DNA of 64,000 nucleotides from contig NZ_JAGOLP010000005.1 in the NCBI RefSeq assembly GCF_017994015.1, positions 1 through 64,000 of the forward strand. The letters are read 5' to 3'. Every line of letters starts with the position of its first letter. The first letter of the stretch is position 1. The notes beneath the pieces are model-generated. The model had not been told where the DNA came from. It ran no database searches and saw only the letters and a program-made list of their open reading frames with translations. This document shows, piece by piece, positions 51,624 through 61,294 of the stretch. The stretch is from Ferrovibrio sp. Its GTDB lineage: Bacteria > Pseudomonadota > Alphaproteobacteria > Ferrovibrionales > Ferrovibrionaceae. The translations under genes were made by a program, and so were the position numbers.

Positions 51624-51893
51624 ATGAAAACCAATGCCCTTGTTGCTGCTTCCGCCCTGGCGGCAATCCTGACTGCCGGCCTTGCCTTGCAGGCCCCCAG
51701 CGCCGCGGCGCAGGATGCCAAAACCGAGAAATGCTATGGCGTGGCCAAGGCCGGCAAGAATGATTGCCAGACTGCCACCACCTCTTGCGCCGGCACTTCG
51801 AAGAAAGATCGCCAGGCCGATGCCTGGATCGCGGTGCCGGCCGGCACCTGCACCAAGTTATCTGGCGGCAGCCTGACCGCCGGCAAGGCCTGA
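51624..51893 (+). CDS. bufA: bufferin-type RiPP precursor (DUF2282 family)
   Basis: An 89-residue secreted peptide with AGGGAG about 8 nt upstream. It has a signal sequence (residues 1-29, hydrophobic core [13 protein letters not shown], end AAAQ) and a mature part with four cysteines: Cys37 (EKCYG), Cys48 (NDCQT), Cys55 (TSCAG) and Cys76 (GTCTK). This is the DUF2282/BufA1 pattern. Bufferins are modified by MNIO enzymes at cysteines and bind copper in the periplasm. The precursor-MNIO-partner-DoxX order follows immediately, which makes the call strong. Confidence 0.92.
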
Positions 51894-51895
51894 CA

Positions 51896-52825
51896 ATGGT
51901 TCACGGCCCCGCCATGCCGATACCCGACAGCCGCAAGCCATTGCGGAGCGGGATCGGCTGGCGTGGGCCGCATCATGCCAGCCTGTTGCAGCAACGGCCG
52001 GCCGTGGGCTGGCTGGAAGTGCATGCCGAAAACTACATGGGCGGCGGTGCGCCGCTTCATTACCTGCGCGAGGCCAGAAAGGACTGGCCGGTGGCGCTGC
52101 ATGGTGTTGGCCTGGGCTTGGGCGGCGCAGAGCCACCCGATGCAGCGCATCTTGAGCGGCTGGCACGGCTGACAGCCGAGATTGAGCCCTTCCTGGTTTC
52201 CGAGCATCTAGCCTGGAGCCAAGTGGACGGGCGTTACTATAACGATCTGTTGCCGCTGCCCTATAACGAACAAAACCTGCTCACAACCTGCCGCAATGTG
52301 TCGATGGTGATGGACCGGCTGCAACAACCGATCCTGATCGAGAACCCGGCGACCTATCTGCGTTTCGCTGACAGCAGCATGTCGGAACTGGATTTCCTGT
52401 GCGAACTGGTGCAGCGCACCGGCTGCGGCCTGCTCTGCGATGTGAGCAACATCTATGTATCCAGCTTCAACCATATCGGCGCCGGGGTGGCCGCAACGGT
52501 GGCGGAAGCCTATCTCGATGCGCTGCCCAGCGCGGCAGTGCGCGAAATCCATCTTGCCGGCCATAGCGAGAGCGATGCCGATGGCCATGCCATCCTGATC
52601 GACGATCATGGCTCTATCGTGCCGGAGCCGGTCTGGCGGCTATACCGCCATGCCGTGGCGCGGTTTCCCCAGGCCGATACGCTGGTGGAATGGGATAGCG
52701 ACCTGCCGCCGCTGAGCGCCCTGGTGGCCGAGGCTGATCTGGCTGATCGCCATCGCGCCGCAGCCTTGGCCGCAGCTGGCATGGCCGCCACAGACGCGAC
52801 GGATGGCGATGAGCAGGCAGCTTGA
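51896..52825 (+). CDS. bufB: MNIO (DUF692) RiPP-modifying oxidase
   Basis: A 309-residue multinuclear non-heme iron enzyme, started 2 bp after bufA; ATG 51914 is an alternative start. TIM-barrel metal ligands are visible in VHAENYM, LHGVGLGLGG, SEHLAWS, LIENPATYL, CDVSNIYVSSFNH, EIHLAGHSE and VEWDSDLPPL, all conserved in DUF692. Characterised members oxidise precursor cysteines to thio-oxazole type groups. It should modify the adjacent four-Cys precursor together with the DUF2063 partner. Confidence 0.93.
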   Translation: MVHGPAMPIPDSRKPLRSGIGWRGPHHASLLQQRPAVGWLEVHAENYMGGGAPLHYLREARKDWPVALHGVGLGLGGAEPPDAAHLERLARLTAEIEPFLVSEHLAWSQVDGRYYNDLLPLPYNEQNLLTTCRNVSMVMDRLQQPILIENPATYLRFADSSMSELDFLCELVQRTGCGLLCDVSNIYVSSFNHIGAGVAATVAEAYLDALPSAAVREIHLAGHSESDADGHAILIDDHGSIVPEPVWRLYRHAVARFPQADTLVEWDSDLPPLSALVAEADLADRHRAAALAAAGMAATDATDGDEQAA

Positions 52826-53564
52826 ATTACAGCGCGACTTTGCCGCCGCTTTGGTGGGCCGGCCCAGCGCCATTGCGCCGCTGGTGGTGGATGATGCCAT
52901 CGGTGCCGCCGGCCGGCTGCAAATTTATGCCAACCATTTCCGCATCAGCCTGATTGAAGCACTTGCCGCTATTTTTCCGGTGACCCGCGCCTTGGTGGGC
53001 GAGGCTTTTTTTGCCCAGGTGGCGCGCGATTTTGTGTTGCGCCAGCCGCCACGCGATCCGCGCCTGTATTGTTATGGCGCCGGCTTTCCGACCATGCTGA
53101 AAGCACTGCCCAATCTGGCCGGCCATGCCTATATGCCCGATGTGGCAGCCTTCGAATGGGCTTTGAACGAAGCCTATCACGCCGAGGACACTGCCGCCTT
53201 TGGCCCCGAGGACATGACCGATCCGGCCCTGGTGGCAAGCCTGACCCTGGCATTGCAGCCTTCCGCGCGCCGGCTCGACACACCCTGGCCGGTGAGTGAA
53301 ATCTGGCAGGTGCACCAGCCTGAAGCACCCGCAGTGGAAAGCATCGACCTGAAGCAGGGCGGCGAGCAATTGCTGGTGTGGCGCGATGGCATCACGGTGT
53401 GCTGGCGCAAATTGCAGCCGGCCGAAGCCGCCTTGCTGGATGCCATGATGGCCGGTCAGCCGCTGGCCCAGGCAGCAGCCATCGCCGCCCAGGCCGGGCC
53501 ACTGGATTTCACCGCCAGCTTTGCCTGGTGCCTGGAGAGCGGTGTTTTTCGCCGCCCGTTATGA
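52803..53564 (+). CDS. bufC: MNIO partner protein (DUF2063, BufC/HvfC type)
   Basis: A 253-residue protein overlapping bufB by 23 bp. The N-terminal DUF2063 domain (LQRDFAAALVGRPS... RLQIYANHFRISLIEALAAIFPVTRALVGEAFF) is the RiPP-precursor recognition part that brings the substrate to the MNIO. A C-terminal domain contains DLKQGGEQLLVWRDG. It is required with BufB in studied systems. The length agrees with the family; ATG 52809 is an alternative start. Confidence 0.92.
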   Translation: MAMSRQLELQRDFAAALVGRPSAIAPLVVDDAIGAAGRLQIYANHFRISLIEALAAIFPVTRALVGEAFFAQVARDFVLRQPPRDPRLYCYGAGFPTMLKALPNLAGHAYMPDVAAFEWALNEAYHAEDTAAFGPEDMTDPALVASLTLALQPSARRLDTPWPVSEIWQVHQPEAPAVESIDLKQGGEQLLVWRDGITVCWRKLQPAEAALLDAMMAGQPLAQAAAIAAQAGPLDFTASFAWCLESGVFRRPL

Positions 53565-53577
53565 AAAGGAAAGCGCC

Positions 53578-54021
53578 ATGATCCACAGCCTGCGCGCCCT
53601 GCTGGACGCTTTTCCGCTTGCCCCCATCCAACTGATGCTGCGCCTGGGGATCGGGCTGCTATTCTGGCGCTCCGGCCTGACCAAGGTGGTGACCAACGAG
53701 GCCGGCGACCTGCCGGCCTTTCCGCCTGCTTTGGCCGCCGGCACAGTGGACCTGTTCACCACTGAATACAAAGTGCCGCTACTGCCGCCGGAACTGGCCG
53801 CCACCCTGGCCGCTAGCGGCGAGTTGGTGCTGCCGGTTTTCCTGGTGCTGGGCCTGTTTGGCCGTTTTGCCGCCGCCGGTCTGCTGGCGATGACCCTGGT
53901 GATCCAGTGGGTATATCCCAGCAACTGGGCCGAACATCTGTTCTGGGCCGGCGCCTTGCTGCTGATCCTGAGCCGCGGCCCGGGCACTCTGTCTCTCGAT
54001 GCGCTTATCTGGCGTCGCTGA
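53578..54021 (+). CDS. DoxX family membrane protein of the bufferin operon
   Basis: A 147-residue protein with about four membrane helices, from ATG 53578 with AAAAGGAAA upstream. The sequence IQLMLRLGIGLLFWRSGLTKV and ASGELVLPVFLVLGLFGRFAAAGLLAMTLVIQW is typical of DoxX. DoxX genes regularly accompany bufferin and related MNIO operons, where they may supply or accept electrons or pass quinol-linked redox power. It lies 13 bp after bufC and ends the operon. Confidence 0.9.
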   Translation: MIHSLRALLDAFPLAPIQLMLRLGIGLLFWRSGLTKVVTNEAGDLPAFPPALAAGTVDLFTTEYKVPLLPPELAATLAASGELVLPVFLVLGLFGRFAAAGLLAMTLVIQWVYPSNWAEHLFWAGALLLILSRGPGTLSLDALIWRR

Positions 54022-54038: not shown

Positions 54039-54968
54039 TTATAGTTTTCGAATATAGACCGGGCTAACGACTTTCACCTCACGCCAACCATAGCGCAAAT
54101 GCAGCTTGTACGCTGCTGTGTTGCGTGTGGAGGCATATGTAAGCAAACGACGGTATCCCATATCCAAAAGATGCTGCATGGCGCGCGTTCCAGCCGCCGC
54201 CGCCGCCGATGTGCCCCAATGCGAACGCGCGGCGACAATGCTGGTGACGATCGGTTTGTCGTCCAGCACGCCCCATTCAGCAAAGCTGGCCATCGAGTCG
54301 CCATCCCAGCAAATCACCATGCCACGGGATTTCTGGCCGAAATAAGGACGCCAGACATTCTGCGGGCTCATTTGAGACACCAGCCGAAGCGCACGGTATG
54401 ATCTGTTGTGCAGATCAAGTATGGCCTGATCGATGGCAGCATCCCCGCCATCATATTCCTGTATCCGCAGGTTGCCTGGATCAGCCAGAGGAACCGCGTC
54501 ACCACACCATTCCATCTCACGGGTCATGCGATCAAGCAGGAACCCCTCCTCAGCCAGCGCCAATTCCAGAGGCTCAGGGAGCCGTTCCTGTAACGATATG
54601 ATGTGCCAGGTATTGGGCAGTTCGGCATCAAGACCAGAAATGCGCGAAAGCAGCAATTTCAGATCAGCGGCAGATAGTTGCGCGGGCTCACTAGCCACTG
54701 AAATCCAGATATTGGATGAACCATCCGGCGCAATCTGACGCATGGAAATCGCTGTGGCGATCAATTCGCCATTCTGGCACAGCAACGAAACATCAAGATT
54801 TTCCGGCTTGGTGACTATTTGCCTTGTCTGCTCGGAATCACCAGCCTCAGGCCATTCCGGAAAGACCTTGCACCAGAATGCTGAAATCCTCTCCAGCATC
54901 GTTTCATCATAGGCGATCAATTCAGCCATCGTGGTGAAAACCTGTATGCTAGTGGTTACTAACTGCAT
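54039..54968 (-). CDS. GNAT-family N-acetyltransferase
   Basis: A 309-residue protein. The C-terminal ~140 residues form a GNAT domain (LRIQEYDGGDAAIDQAILDLHNRSYR, then VAARSHWGTSAAAAAGTRAMQHLLDMGYRRLLTYASTRNTAAYKLHLRYGWRE, where the acetyl-CoA loop is degenerate). The N-terminal half looks like a second, diverged GNAT fold (ISAFWCKVFPEWP... LPEPLELALAEEGFLLDR). Base composition and codons look less GC-rich than the housekeeping genes. The gene converges with the bufferin operon and diverges from parA. Substrate unknown. Confidence 0.78.
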   Translation of the reverse strand: MQLVTTSIQVFTTMAELIAYDETMLERISAFWCKVFPEWPEAGDSEQTRQIVTKPENLDVSLLCQNGELIATAISMRQIAPDGSSNIWISVASEPAQLSAADLKLLLSRISGLDAELPNTWHIISLQERLPEPLELALAEEGFLLDRMTREMEWCGDAVPLADPGNLRIQEYDGGDAAIDQAILDLHNRSYRALRLVSQMSPQNVWRPYFGQKSRGMVICWDGDSMASFAEWGVLDDKPIVTSIVAARSHWGTSAAAAAGTRAMQHLLDMGYRRLLTYASTRNTAAYKLHLRYGWREVKVVSPVYIRKL

Positions 54969-55046
54969 GACAGCTTATCAAAATCGCGATTGGAAGCTAA
55001 CCTTGAAGTTGGTCAGACTAAGAATCCATGGCCCAGGGAGGTGCGG

Positions 55047-55811
55047 GTGAGGCGCATAGCAGTTTCCAACCAGAAGGGTGGCTCGGCCAAGACCACAACA
55101 GCGGTCAATCTGGCTGCCGCATTGGCCGAAAATGGGCGCAAGGTGCTGGTGCTTGATCTCGACCCCCAGGGCAGTTCCTCATCCTGGCTCGGCATGGCAG
55201 GCAGGCCATCTGGGGCCTATGAGTTGCTTGCCGAAAGCGGCCCTGCCGTAGATCTGGTGCAAACCACGGCCTTCAACGATATCGCCGTGATACCGGCCAC
55301 GCCGGCCCTGCATAATGCCGAGCGAACCCTAGCGCGGGAAATCGGCGCTGAAATGGTTTTGCAACGTCGACTGGCCGGCTTAGGTGGCAACTGGGATTAT
55401 CTGCTGATCGACACACCACCCACGCTTGGGATGCTCACCCTGAACGCACTTGCGGCAGCAGATGAATTGATTGCGCCGGTGGAGGCACATGTCATGGCGC
55501 TGGCCGGCGTGGCGCAATTGATGGAAACAATGCGCATGGTGCGCGAGCGCCTGAACCCGGGGCTCAGACTGGCCGGCATCCTGGCCTGCCGTGTGGACAG
55601 CCGCACGCGGCATTCGCTGGATGTGGTGGCAAGTATGCGCAAAACCTTCGGCTCGGATGTTTACAATACAGTGATCCGCGAGAATGTGCGCCTGGCCGAA
55701 GCCCCCTCCTTCCATATGCCGATCACGCGCTATGACAGCCAGAGTGCGGGGGCGGCTGATTATCGCGCTGCAGCCGCCGAAGTCATGGCACAGGAAGGAT
55801 CGGCTCGGTGA
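55047..55811 (+). CDS. orphan ParA/Soj-like ATPase
   Basis: A 254-residue P-loop ATPase. I start it at GTG 55047, 6 nt after GGGAGG. It has the deviant Walker A KGGSAKTT at residues 10-17 and Walker B VLVLDLDPQGS, with DTPPTLG as the Walker A-prime/switch. No parB gene or parS-like cluster is nearby. Orphan ParA proteins often position protein cargo or act in plasmid maintenance. It ends 12 bp from the convergent LanM stop, and its neighbours suggest an acquired accessory block. Confidence 0.88.
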   Translation: MRRIAVSNQKGGSAKTTTAVNLAAALAENGRKVLVLDLDPQGSSSSWLGMAGRPSGAYELLAESGPAVDLVQTTAFNDIAVIPATPALHNAERTLAREIGAEMVLQRRLAGLGGNWDYLLIDTPPTLGMLTLNALAAADELIAPVEAHVMALAGVAQLMETMRMVRERLNPGLRLAGILACRVDSRTRHSLDVVASMRKTFGSDVYNTVIRENVRLAEAPSFHMPITRYDSQSAGAADYRAAAAEVMAQEGSAR

Positions 55812-55823
55812 GGTCCGCCTGCC

Positions 55824-58800
55824 TCATTCCAAGATCAGGATATTCGGCAACTGGCCGGGCGCCGCTTGGCGCAGCAAGGTATACCCTGCCCCGGCCATGC
55901 CCTGGAAGAAACCGAGATTTTCTGCATCGCCACCAATAAACCAGGCGAATTCACCCGCTTTTCCTGCAGCCTCAATCAGCCCGCGCATCTGAATCGATGC
56001 CAGATCACGAATCGCTTCGCCGCCGATACCCAGCCGCGCGGCTTCGGCCAGCAACTCGATATTGCCCAGATTGCCACAGCAAACCGAATCGAAGCGAGCC
56101 GGCCAATACCGAAGAGTCGTGCTGATTGCATCGTTGATCTCGGTTATCAGCTGCGGGTCCTGCACACCATTTGCAAACCGATACATGCCGAGCCGGCCAA
56201 GCCCAACGCCGCCGGCACCGTGGCACCATTGCGCCGCCCAGCCCGGCCGTTCTGAACTCTTGCGCAGATCCGGCCAGTTCATGCGTTCAGGTGAGTACCA
56301 GCGCCGCTCATACTCAACACAATCCCTGGCTGCATTGGCAAAGCGCTCGGCCCCACTGGCTTTGGCCAGAGCTGACAGCGCATAGGCATAGCCGGCGGCG
56401 CCATGCGAGAAACCCGTCAGCGGCCGGCGCGACAGATGAACCCAGAGGCCCTTACCATCTGCTTGCGGCATCCGGCGACGCAGCATGTGATCGCCGCAAG
56501 CAACCGCCCGTTCGATCAGGAAGGCTTCACCAGTTCGGCGATGCAGCGCCAGTAAAGCCAGGATGCAGCCGGCTGCACCGCCCACCACGTCAAAGATATT
56601 GTCGCCTCGAATCACGTCATCCGTCAGCAGCCTGGCAGCATGCAGAGCATCGCGCATCAGGCCCGGATCATCGAGCAACTCGGCCACTACACCAAAGGCA
56701 TAGGCCATTGAGCCGATGCCAGACGCACCACCGATGCCCATTTTGCGTGCGAAACGTGCCGCGCCGCTGCTATGGATATGATGTCTGGCCGGCGCGAGCC
56801 CGGCCAGCGCAAGTTCCGCCGATTGGGCTGCGTTGCGTATCCGGCCATGCGCGGCAAGAAATAACGCCACACCGGGCGCGCCGCCATACAGATCGGTGCC
56901 CAGCACAAGCGGCTCCCAGCCGCCGCCATCGGCCAGCGGGTCCAGGCCGATCCAGGCCGCGCTATATTCATCCCGCGCAGCAGCCGCCTTGATCTGTTGG
57001 GCAATATCATCTGCCGCCGAGAAAGCCACATCCGGCGACAGCGGATCGCCGGCCGATGGAATGAATTTACGCGGCGGATGTTTGCCGGCACCGACCACCA
57101 GATCAAAAGCCTCCGATCCCATGGTGCAAAGGCGGATCACATCAAGTTGCCAGGCAATGGCCGCCTGATCCAGCCGGCTGATACGCTCACGCGCGATATG
57201 CAATCCAGGGGTCATGCCGCTGGCGGCGACCAAGCCCACGCCATCCTGCAGCCGTTCGCCATCAGCAGCATGCACAAAAAACGGAATGTTCAAATCGGCC
57301 AGGGCGCGCCGCTCGGCAAGGGCCAGCGGCCAGAGCGTTTCCTGCTCCTTGTCCCAATCGGCAAGGCGGGCGCCGAAATCGAGATGTGCGCTCCAGATTG
57401 CACCATCCTGCATGTCGCGGTGATTGCGCACGCGGTCCAGCAGCAGGAAGTAAAAGCGCGTTGGCTTGATGACATGACGAATCAGGCAGCCTTCAAACGC
57501 GGCTATCGGCCCCTTATCCGCCAGCAATTGATCTTTTAGCCCCAGCAGGAAAGCCAGGTATTCCTGGCAACCCTCGCGGAACGGCACAAGATAATCGGTC
57601 AGGCGGATTGTTGCACCATTCAGGCGCGGCAGATTGGTTTTATCCGCTGCCTCATATTTTGGCGGCGCCGGCTGCATCACGTCGCTGTTCAGCCCGGCCC
57701 ATTCCTGGCGCTGTGGTTTGCCGACATCATTATCACTGAGGCCACCGGAAGCCAGCACGGCGGTATCCGGCGCCTTCATGAAGGATGGCAGCAAACCGGT
57801 TTGCGACACGGATTCCTTGAAGCGGCGATCAAGTCGCTCGGTCATACGCAAAGCTGGCACCTGCGAGTCCATGGCAGGATCATTCGCTTGCAGGATCATC
57901 TCAAGATCGATGCCAACAGGATATTCGCCGGCGGCAATGACATTTTCTTCGTGCATGTCGGTTGCGGCCATCAGATGCCACAGCGCCAGCAAGGCGCCGG
58001 CGCGGCGAAAAAAACGATTGGCAGCTTCCTGATCAACACAATCGGCATGGGCGATGAATTCGCTCCAGCCATAGCCGTCGCGTTCGATCACCCGCGCCGC
58101 GGCCAGCCCGATCGGCGGCTGCCGCTGATTCAGCCATGCGATCAGGTCGGCCCAGCGCGCATCCACCCGCATGTCCTTCGGCTTGTACACCACCGCCTGA
58201 CCAGCCGCGAAGCGCAGCACCAGAACACTACGGCCAAAATTGTGCGGATCGGAAAGGCCGGAGGTTATTGCCATCACCGGGCCGGCCGGCGCCAAAGGCA
58301 ACAGACCATCGTTAATAAGCGCCCAATCCTGATCCAGTCGCATCAGGAATTCAGCACCAGCCTCAATCCATTGCCTGATAACTGAAGCCAAGAGCCTGAG
58401 CAGCACCGGCTTGTGATCAAACAGACGAAGCAGGCCCCCGGCACGCATTTCACGGATGAAACGATCATAATGCTGGCGCTGCTGTGGCTTGAGAGGGGCG
58501 CCCTGCGACCATTCCTGGCGGCATCTGGCGAAATGCTCATACAACGCCATGGCGCAAAGCCCGGTTACGGTTTTGAGCAAATCCTGCGCCATGCTGCGTA
58601 ACGCCGCCGGCTGCACCCGGCTGAGCACCCGCTGCGTCAGCGCCTGATCGCGCTGCTGCTCGGCGGCGAACACGATGCCCAGAAACAGATCCTCGAATGG
58701 TTCCGGCTTGTCATGTCGAAGCAGGGCCGCGGCGTAATCCGCTCCCGGGTTTTTTGGCAGCGCGGCGAGTATCCAGGCAGCATCTTCTGCCCAACCTGGT

Positions 58801-59054
58801 GGCCGTGCATTGCCCGCCAGCGCCACCCGGCCCAACCGCGGCATGATTGCTTCCATGCTCAGGCCGTCGCGCCGCAGGCGCTTGGCAAACAAAGCCCAGT
58901 CGCCGCTCGCCGCAGACTGGCACCAAGAAGCAAGCCGTGCCGCCGCCAATTCGGCATCGGCCTTCAGGCTTGGCTGGGGTACATAGTGGCTTGAAAGTCG
59001 TTCGTCGATTGTGGCCGCTCTGGCCGCGAATGCCCCGATCCAATCCTGCAACAC
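55824..59054 (-). CDS. lanM: class II lanthipeptide synthetase (LanM)
   Basis: A 1076-residue bifunctional enzyme. I prefer GTG 59054, with GGGAG 4 nt upstream, over ATG 59090, which falls in a direct repeat. N-terminal dehydratase (DUF4135): GLSDPHNFGRSV (Asp/His), VYKPKDM (Lys), ATDMHEEN and VGIDLEM (Asp/His/Asn, Asp/Glu), and RHVIKPT, which phosphorylate and eliminate Ser/Thr of the precursor. C-terminal LanC-like cyclase: SHGAAG, WCHGAGG (Cys about 944) and CCGNLG (Cys about 992-993), where common LanMs have CHG. The divergent repeat gene is the probable substrate; no LanT is adjacent. Confidence 0.95.
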   Translation of the reverse strand: MLQDWIGAFAARAATIDERLSSHYVPQPSLKADAELAAARLASWCQSAASGDWALFAKRLRRDGLSMEAIMPRLGRVALAGNARPPGWAEDAAWILAALPKNPGADYAAALLRHDKPEPFEDLFLGIVFAAEQQRDQALTQRVLSRVQPAALRSMAQDLLKTVTGLCAMALYEHFARCRQEWSQGAPLKPQQRQHYDRFIREMRAGGLLRLFDHKPVLLRLLASVIRQWIEAGAEFLMRLDQDWALINDGLLPLAPAGPVMAITSGLSDPHNFGRSVLVLRFAAGQAVVYKPKDMRVDARWADLIAWLNQRQPPIGLAAARVIERDGYGWSEFIAHADCVDQEAANRFFRRAGALLALWHLMAATDMHEENVIAAGEYPVGIDLEMILQANDPAMDSQVPALRMTERLDRRFKESVSQTGLLPSFMKAPDTAVLASGGLSDNDVGKPQRQEWAGLNSDVMQPAPPKYEAADKTNLPRLNGATIRLTDYLVPFREGCQEYLAFLLGLKDQLLADKGPIAAFEGCLIRHVIKPTRFYFLLLDRVRNHRDMQDGAIWSAHLDFGARLADWDKEQETLWPLALAERRALADLNIPFFVHAADGERLQDGVGLVAASGMTPGLHIARERISRLDQAAIAWQLDVIRLCTMGSEAFDLVVGAGKHPPRKFIPSAGDPLSPDVAFSAADDIAQQIKAAAARDEYSAAWIGLDPLADGGGWEPLVLGTDLYGGAPGVALFLAAHGRIRNAAQSAELALAGLAPARHHIHSSGAARFARKMGIGGASGIGSMAYAFGVVAELLDDPGLMRDALHAARLLTDDVIRGDNIFDVVGGAAGCILALLALHRRTGEAFLIERAVACGDHMLRRRMPQADGKGLWVHLSRRPLTGFSHGAAGYAYALSALAKASGAERFANAARDCVEYERRWYSPERMNWPDLRKSSERPGWAAQWCHGAGGVGLGRLGMYRFANGVQDPQLITEINDAISTTLRYWPARFDSVCCGNLGNIELLAEAARLGIGGEAIRDLASIQMRGLIEAAGKAGEFAWFIGGDAENLGFFQGMAGAGYTLLRQAAPGQLPNILILE

Positions 59055-59302
59055 GCTTCTCCCATCCCAGGATGCCCCACAAGCAGGCATGATACCCGGC
59101 AGGCATGATACGATGACAATCTATTGTCATGCGATAGCCGAGTGTCTCAGGCAACGGGCAAACACAATGAGAAGTAGTGCACTTGGCAGATTGCCAACGC
59201 CCCCGAGACCGCGCCCCAAAAAAACCACTTTACGGGCTGCGACAGCCAATGTTAGCGTTTGAACTAATTGAGAAAATGTTTTGACCAGAAGGGGAGAGTA
59301 AA
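59055..59302. promoter_or_regulatory. shared upstream region of lanM and the repeat-precursor gene
   Basis: A 248-bp divergent intergenic region. It contains a 13-bp direct repeat, GCAGGCATGATAC, at 59083-59095 and 59099-59111 (16-bp period). A perfect palindrome at 59113-59130 (ATGACAAT-CT-ATTGTCAT) lies close beside it. A strong ribosome-binding site (AAGGGGAG) lies 5-6 nt before the precursor ATG. The repeats lie nearer lanM and could hold a regulator binding site controlling both genes. Confidence 0.65.
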
Positions 59303-61294
59303 ATGCCGTTACGTCTTTCTACTCCGTCAACTTCATTCAACGATCAGACCGGCGCACCCGGCTATGGCGAGTCATTCTCGACCGATTCAGCCCTGGAAAG
59401 CGCGGCGGCTTCATCAAACCCTCCGACCCTTCCTTTTTTCCCGCCGCGTCCGTGTGCCGGCCAGGAAGACGCCATGCTTGAGCAGTCAATGACCGCAGGG
59501 CCTTTTCCAACCGCTTTTCCAGGCGCTATCCCTCATTGCCGTTCCGTGGAGGATGCTGCGCTGGAGCAGTCAATGACCGCCACGGCTATATCAACCATTT
59601 CAACAAACCCCTTTTGCCGTAGCGTGGAGGATTCAGCGTTGGAATTAGCTTCCGCTGATACGGCTCCCCCTACGACGCCGCGGGTGGTTTACGGTAATTG
59701 CGCCGTGGAAGACGATGCCAATCTGGAAAATAGCGTCTCTGCCTCTGCGCAGCCGACCCGTTATGGCTGGCCGAATTGCCTCACAGGCACCGATTCTGCG
59801 CTGGAACGCTCGGTCGCCGATACGGCTTTGCGCACCTTCGGGCCGAATACTTTCATGCCTTGCATATCGGCAGGCGATGCTGAACTGGAAAATAGTCTTT
59901 CCGCCTCTGCCCAGCCGACCCGTTATGGCTGGCCGAATTGCCTCACAGGCACCGATTCTGGGCTGGAACGCTCGGTTACCGATGTGGCGATGCCTACTCA
60001 GCGTGGTCCCTACATGCCTTGCATATCGGCAGGTGATGCTGAACTTGAAAATAGCGTATCTGCCTCTCCGCAGCCGACCCGTTTTGGCTGGCCAGGTTGC
60101 ATCATGGGCACCGATTCTGCGCTGGAACGCTCGGTTGCCATGGCTGCACCCGTGACCACCCCGTGGTCCGCCTTCCCGAGGCAATGTGTTGGCTCGGAGG
60201 ATGCCAACCTGGAAGCATCTGCAACAGCAACGGCAATGCGAACCGCCATGATGCCTCCTTGCTTCAATGCGGATGTCGCGCTGGAGCAGTCGATGACAAG
60301 TGCGGCAACCCAGACCACCGTGTTGGGCCTTCCGCGCTGCTCTTCTGTAGATGATATCGCCTTGGAACATTCTGCCGCGGATACCGCGATCGGTACCTTC
60401 CATAATCCCAGAATGCCCCAATGCATGGCGATAGACGATGCCAAGCTGGAAAATAGCGCCTCTGCCTCTCAGCCGGCGACCGGGTTTGGCCGACCGCTTT
60501 GCCCCTTTGGCACCGATTCTGGGCTGGAGCAGTCGATGACCGCTGGGCCTGTGCCAACCTCTCTAGCATTGCCTATTTGTCGCATGGTGGAGGATGCCGC
60601 GTTGGAATTTGCTTCCGCTGATATGGCTCCCCCGACGAGGCCGTGGGTGGCTTACGGTAATTGCGCCGTGGAAGACGATGCCAAGCTGGAAAATAGCGCC
60701 TCTGCCTCTCAGCCGGCGACCGGGTTTGGCCGACCGCTTTGCCCCTTTGGCACCGATTCTGGGCTGGAGCAGTCGATGACAAGTGCGGCAACCCAGACCA
60801 CCGTGCTGGGCTTTCCGCGCTGCTCTTCTGTGGATGATATCGCCTTGGAACATTCCGCCGCGGATACCGCGATCGGTACCTTCCATAATCCCAGAATGCC
60901 CCAGTGCATGGCGGCAGGCGATGCCAAGCCGGAATATAGACTTTCCGCCTCAGCGCAGCCGCCCCATACAGACTGGCCTTGCTTGACAGAAGATGATGCA
61001 GCGTTGGAGCGGATCACCCTGAATGCCGCCCCCTCCGTCAACCCCTATGTTGTGCACTGCGCCGCTGAGGATGCGGCATTGGAACAGTCGATCATGAAAT
61101 CGGCGCCCCCCACCTCGCCAATGTCGCTAATGCCATGCTTGCCGAGAGTCGATGACGCTGTGCTGGAAGGGGCCGCTGTGATGTCGGCGGGCTCAACCCA
61201 TATGCCGCCACAGGTCTGGATGCCGTGCATCTCTGCGGATGGTGGTGTTTTGGAGCGGGTTGCGGCCAGTAATTCCCCAATGCCCCAACTTTAG
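59303..61294 (+). CDS. 663-residue tandem-repeat protein, putative multi-core lanthipeptide precursor
   Basis: Starts at ATG 59303, 5-6 nt after AAGGGGAG. After 27 residues (MPLRLSTPSTSFNDQT...) the protein is 23 degenerate units of about 24-31 residues plus a Cys-less last unit. Each unit runs D-x-x-L-E-x-S, Ser/Thr-rich stretch, A-x-P-T, then one Cys 16-27 residues after the L-E pair, then an acidic end. There is no signal peptide or known fold. Each single Cys has Ser/Thr on its N-terminal side, the geometry lanthionine formation needs. The divergent LanM is the natural modifying enzyme. If so, one chain would yield 23 ring-bearing cores with a repeated recognition element. Confidence 0.75.
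   Translation: MPLRLSTPSTSFNDQTGAPGYGESFSTDSALESAAASSNPPTLPFFPPRPCAGQEDAMLEQSMTAGPFPTAFPGAIPHCRSVEDAALEQSMTATAISTISTNPFCRSVEDSALELASADTAPPTTPRVVYGNCAVEDDANLENSVSASAQPTRYGWPNCLTGTDSALERSVADTALRTFGPNTFMPCISAGDAELENSLSASAQPTRYGWPNCLTGTDSGLERSVTDVAMPTQRGPYMPCISAGDAELENSVSASPQPTRFGWPGCIMGTDSALERSVAMAAPVTTPWSAFPRQCVGSEDANLEASATATAMRTAMMPPCFNADVALEQSMTSAATQTTVLGLPRCSSVDDIALEHSAADTAIGTFHNPRMPQCMAIDDAKLENSASASQPATGFGRPLCPFGTDSGLEQSMTAGPVPTSLALPICRMVEDAALEFASADMAPPTRPWVAYGNCAVEDDAKLENSASASQPATGFGRPLCPFGTDSGLEQSMTSAATQTTVLGFPRCSSVDDIALEHSAADTAIGTFHNPRMPQCMAAGDAKPEYRLSASAQPPHTDWPCLTEDDAALERITLNAAPSVNPYVVHCAAEDAALEQSIMKSAPPTSPMSLMPCLPRVDDAVLEGAAVMSAGSTHMPPQVWMPCISADGGVLERVAASNSPMPQL
59384..61291 (+). repeat. 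tandem array of 23 one-cysteine units inside the precursor gene
   Basis: Each unit begins about D-[SADIV]-x-L-E and ends in a Cys followed by 3-6 residues and an acidic pair; the 23 cysteines are one per unit. Recent duplication is visible in the DNA. A block of about 105 bp recurs exactly at an offset of 240 bp (60436 and 60676), one of about 140 bp at an offset of about 483 bp (60281 and 60764), and one of about 46 bp at an offset of 162 bp (59761 and 59923). Confidence 0.9.

Follow-up and report, generated by a model that had tools for sequence, protein, structure and literature searches.

Can a lanthipeptide precursor be built as a long tandem array in which every unit offers a ring to the same synthetase? 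The question is raised by a locus of Ferrovibrio sp. (Alphaproteobacteria), lying in a 64,000-nucleotide stretch of contig NZ_JAGOLP010000005.1 (positions 1–64,000, hereafter the window), where a gene for the class II lanthipeptide synthetase LanM (55824–59090, minus strand) and a gene for a 663-residue repeat protein (59303–61294, plus strand) diverge from a 212 bp intergenic region (59091–59302). We consider it very probable that these two genes, together with a nearby tandem GNAT acyltransferase gene, make up a small class II lanthipeptide cluster in which the repeat protein serves as a giant precursor of 23 units receiving about one ring per unit. LanM would dehydrate the Ser and Thr residues of every unit, and about one (methyl)lanthionine would form in each, most likely from a conserved Thr to the single Cys 6–10 residues further on, while the GNAT would act on the product.

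The synthetase, at 1088 amino acids (aa), is complete and intact, matching TIGR03897 at 723.6 bits (cut-off 304) in addition to DUF4135 and LANC_like, and contains both the lyase/kinase-like dehydratase and the LanC-like cyclase domains of a bifunctional enzyme. Alignment with CylM, LicM2 and 40-odd homologues shows that the dehydratase residues are kept (D/H of SDPH, K of VYKPK, D/H/N of TDMHEEN, D/E of IDLE and R/T of RHVIKPT), as are the three zinc ligands, namely the C of WCHG and the CC of CCG. An earlier reading made from the letters of the window alone (the sequence-only reading) had described a full-length LanM divergent from a 663-residue protein of 23 units, and this description holds, both frames being complete. 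CCG-type zinc ligands mark promiscuous synthetases such as ProcM, and single CCG-type LanMs are known to modify many genome-scattered precursors (PMC10027976).

The repeat gene has a good ribosome-binding site, a Shine-Dalgarno-like AAGGGGAGAG at about 59289–59298, directly 5′ of its ATG. Its product begins with a 27-aa segment (59303–59383, plus strand), possibly a short leader, which did not match the one shared by the related precursors described below. This is followed by the array of 23 units (59384–61237, plus strand), with the consensus D-A-x-L-E-x-S-x4-A-x-P-T-x5-8-C, and by a C-terminal partial, 24th unit, DGGVLERVAASNSPMPQL (61238–61291, plus strand). The units are degenerate and 24–29 aa long; all 23 contain Ser/Thr together with exactly one Cys, and there is no Cys in the N-terminal segment or in the partial unit. 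Anchored on the Leu (22/23), they show D in 23/23, E in 23/23, Ser at +3 in 17/23, Ala at +8 in 17/23 and Thr at +11 in 21/23, with the Cys 6–10 residues beyond the Thr position. The acidic D-x-x-L-E unit start and the one-Cys-per-unit pattern of the sequence-only reading are thereby confirmed, and its proposal that the Cys is under selection although the units have diverged is likewise supported: the pooled ratio of non-synonymous to synonymous differences (pN/pS) is about 0.93 between alignable unit pairs, of which there are few, and the Cys is present in 23/23. The body of the unit thus appears close to free while D, L, E, T and C stay fixed. This is better evidence than the chance of one per unit when 23 Cys are placed randomly in 23 units (log10 P = −8.9), a statistic that takes no account of the units' shared ancestry. 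Units 12–14 reappear as near copies, in order, as units 17–19, which indicates that the array grows by internal duplication; Tandem Repeats Finder detected the array in part only, because the units have diverged. No match for the repeat protein was found in Pfam, NCBIfam, PHROGs or the PDB, and a single-sequence AlphaFold prediction gave no confident fold (mean predicted local distance difference test score, pLDDT, 31.6), a weak hint that the protein may be an unfolded substrate.

Support for the multi-unit precursor comes from related loci. In a phylogenetic tree the window LanM is the sister of L022, a Rhizobiales LanM (41% identity, 100/100), and groups (94/93) with the LanMs of the genomes G724, G178 and G050, which represent two other families; such relatives are sparse, occurring in 10 of the 385 genomes of the class, which was taken as Alphaproteobacteria from best hits to Azospirillum and Rhizobiales. 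G050 encodes a precursor with four tandem units (e.g. IDADASVSAAAVTFRVPGC), G178 a shorter version of this type, and G724 two precursors, from separate genes, with two units each. LanM is present in seven of the 29 genomes of G724's family, which yields six new loci, all in G724's genus, having one to several precursors each, mostly with 2–8 one-Cys units behind a common leader. This leader, T...[ML]..W..SGGA, is shared by the small precursors of G724, G178, G050 and the six further loci, and is likewise carried by a few short one-Cys frames. The relatives' units follow the consensus D-x-E-L-x-A-A-A-x-T-x5-C (grammar D..[LMI]..A..T.....C) with a median Cys spacing of 19. The unit MLTRS[PV]QTCYSI reappears in different precursors from no fewer than five genomes, as though units had been swapped, and the unit MLTRSPQTCYSI also recurs among the precursors of related genomes. 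Rows of multi-unit precursors lie downstream of LanM at L096:11991–14384, L098:11333–13658 and L097:11422–13329, with the MLTRS-type unit common between genes as well as between genomes.

A more distant LanM of CHG type, in G279, is accompanied by a divergent repeat protein with at least four one-Cys units of 28 aa around RTNTDIPEC. This protein (L058:10664–11260) is cut by the contig end and has an N-terminal region of about 105 aa before the units, which matched no known leader. Tandem one-Cys repeat proteins, which the sequence-only reading had proposed to look for in LanM neighbourhoods, are found beside the LanMs of G724, G178 and G050, six further LanMs and that of G279. The presence of related LanMs in two other families beside precursors of mostly 2–8 units supports the claim of a multi-unit precursor, and the 23-unit array would represent an extreme expansion of these smaller precursors. 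As to the other part of that claim, one ring per unit, we infer ring formation itself, just as we infer the role of Thr as the partner and the action of the GNAT on the product.

A number of observations weigh against this reading. The relatives' leader T...M..W..SGGA is absent from the window repeat protein, and neither hidden Markov model (HMM) profile searches nor hhalign found a significant link between the window units and those of the relatives. In the window cluster the GNAT lies 0.9 kb past LanM, with a ParA gene (54990–55811) intervening. Moreover, the precursor of L022, the closest LanM relative, looks like an ordinary one with a single core: the likely candidate, unannotated, is MNRLKTADDEDELDRVEEEILSHIVSDEALEAAGG-TEKVVTNVVSKATCAGSCGCNR at about L022:13440–13613 (minus strand), with the leader end SDEALEAAGG. 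The ordinary precursor of L022 also favours the idea that the window LanM modifies some other precursor elsewhere in the genome and that the 23-unit array is degenerate or dead, as does the action of CCG-type LanMs on many scattered precursors (PMC10027976). This seems highly improbable to us, given that 663 codons are open and that D, L, E, T and C, which a dead array would lose, are intact in nearly all units; in addition, searches of this assembly, which is 87% complete, found no homologue of the repeat protein and none of the G050 precursor elsewhere in the genome.

How the window units relate to those of the relatives was also assessed by motif. The motif A..[ST]..C, with 3–9 residues ahead of the Cys, is found in 16 of the 23 window units, as against a mean of 5.3 and a maximum of 12 in 2000 shuffles of the unit bodies, and remains enriched under column permutation (p = 0.026). 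A rank test of window against relatives' units (area under the curve 0.725) was not relied on, as one of eight column-permuted controls scored better. The link rests on the neighbourhood (LanM clade and GNAT) and on this motif, and the window protein could be homologous to the relatives' precursors but diverged, or could have arisen in parallel; a multi-unit precursor fits both. The window has the same-clade LanM (94/93) and a tandem GNAT with RxHWGT near it. Because the T...M..W..SGGA leader is missing, the locus is related in design to the LanM/GNAT multi-unit cassette rather than a strict member of it.

The sequence-only reading had further assigned to each unit its own L-E recognition helix. 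Scoring of the DEELE leader end along the repeat protein identified the unit start as the best register (mean 5.9 versus −3 or less at other offsets), so that a resemblance to the end of class II leaders is retained, but not its significance, as 222 of 2000 column-permuted controls equalled the score at the unit start (p about 0.11). The D-x-x-L units of the relatives stand behind a separate N-terminal leader, and hence D-x-x-L may be something other than a leader; we regard a helix of this kind in each unit as an attractive but unproven suggestion. We find it doubtful that each unit is self-sufficient, with DxxLE recruiting LanM without a separate leader to give either a 23-ring polymer or 23 single-ring peptides.

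The proposed third member of the cluster, the tandem GNAT (54039–54968, minus strand), is assigned on its homology to the GNATs beside related LanMs (E about 3e-8 versus that of G724), with which it has R-x-H-W-G-T in common; an alignment-based model of it matches the tandem GNAT 7q3a (E 1.8e-14). Multi-unit precursors recur with both this LanM clade and the GNAT, which adjoins LanM in all nine cases (G050, G178, G724 and the six further loci). In selidamides and nostolysamides, lanthipeptides are acylated by tandem GNATs (PMC13060382). The relatives' cores are almost without Lys, so the acyl site would have to differ from the published Lys/Orn site, and acylation of Lys or Orn as in selidamides is unlikely here. 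Frames partly overlapping the LanM start and matching the G178 GNAT (L054:8009–9340 and L055:8146–9759, both minus strand) suggest that G178 and G050 have a further GNAT upstream of LanM.

What becomes of the product is a separate matter. Neither the window cluster nor any related cassette that was examined was found to contain a transporter or peptidase gene, the cassettes of G724's genus being flanked by housekeeping genes (FtsK, an aminotransferase, a chemotaxis receptor). A LanT/C39 peptidase was considered for the cluster and rejected: the sole C39-type match in the assembly, at the head of a type I exporter-like ATP-binding cassette (ABC) protein (G000:C32:65556; L021:1450–3369), is degenerate, with DSGLFAL in place of the catalytic Cys. 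The product might thus remain a single long protein, stapled by 23 thioether rings and structural or surface-related in function, from which no peptides are released. The lack of protease and transporter genes, the loss of the catalytic Cys and the fact that, apart from their acidic start, the units share no evident cleavage motif all point in that direction. Set against this, neither a signal peptide nor a cell-wall motif was noticed in the repeat protein, a protease or transporter could be missed in an assembly that is 87% complete, and proteases encoded elsewhere can serve clusters; we give a stapled polymer a real but minority chance.

The distribution of the genes bears on whether they belong together. 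The repeat protein is not widespread without LanM, an outcome that would have told against the sequence-only reading: no homologue was found in the 385 genomes of the class, 61 relatives, 72,556 plasmids or viral contigs. The weak matches, to an FAD-oxidase-like frame of G053 and a short one of G048, seem spurious. Nine same-genus and eight same-family genomes lack both LanM and the repeat gene, the tandem GNAT gene is missing from the nine same-genus genomes too, and the lack of all three there fits co-acquired genes.

These findings also count in weighing whether the repeat protein is an unrelated Cys repeat, metal-binding or structural, that neighbours LanM by chance. Profile searches show no homology to known precursors, as would be expected of such a protein, and a bufferin-like copper-metallophore operon is located nearby (51624–54021). 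We nevertheless judge a chance neighbour improbable, since one-Cys tandem-unit proteins recur beside related LanMs and the gene is missing wherever LanM is missing within the genus; units with a single Cys per 26 aa and a conserved Thr, lacking both His and a second Cys, are unlike metal-binding repeats, and no fold is predicted, albeit from a single sequence only. A relation of the repeats to the bufferin operon was rejected, the operon being separate and on the far side of the GNAT and ParA genes. In its own right this operon is a second locus for a ribosomally synthesized and post-translationally modified peptide (RiPP) close to the LanM locus, comprising a BufA2-like precursor, an MNIO maturase (NF050167 above cut-off), HvfC/DUF2063 and DoxX. 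Two further repeats were seen in the related genomes: regularly spaced repeats near the G050 cluster (L055:3710–4816, translated FNPRTRKGAT / STHPQGCD) that resemble an array of clustered regularly interspaced short palindromic repeats (CRISPR), and, near a LanC-like gene in G191, a protein of many PQTISFAQ repeats (L064:5870–6547), which is not a one-Cys repeat.

How does a LanM-modified 23-unit precursor compare with known systems? Prochlorosins likewise depend on a CCG-type LanM, ProcM, which by itself modifies a large set of cores of differing sequence (PMC10027976), but there each core, behind a long Nif11 leader, has a gene of its own, whereas the window has tandem units in one polypeptide. 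Selidamides and nostolysamides share with it the pairing of a ProcM-clade class II synthetase (LanM or another RiPP enzyme) and a tandem GNAT (PMC13060382), but their single-core Nif11/NHLP precursors are acylated on Lys or Orn, and just 4 of the 663 residues of the window protein are Lys. In multi-core microviridins (AMdnA/AMdnC) and in cyanobactins, one cyclase likewise serves several cores per precursor (PMC5934393), but with lactone or other chemistry rather than thioethers, and with three cores in AMdnA rather than 23 units. Ordinary class II lanthipeptides also have a LanM and several rings per precursor, but their rings are not tandem homologous units; here the units duplicate and recombine. 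With respect to the open-access literature, the enzyme is of a known kind and the precursor architecture is new.

Multi-core precursors are rare among RiPPs, and a 2018 list of them comprises cyanobactins, cyclotides, orbitides and fungal RiPPs (PMC5934393); according to a paper of July 2026, they have not been reported for lanthipeptides (PMC13343206). Taking multi-core to mean at least two homologous cores per precursor, there are 23 units in the window protein and mostly 2–8 in the related loci. Lanthipeptides are thought to have one core per precursor, and the window locus and related cassettes would supply the missing multi-core case, with up to 23 units. Such tandem arrays would make it testable how LanM handles many sites per chain and whether a leader is needed once per chain or once per unit, and as natural modular arrays with swapped ring units they may prove useful for peptide engineering.

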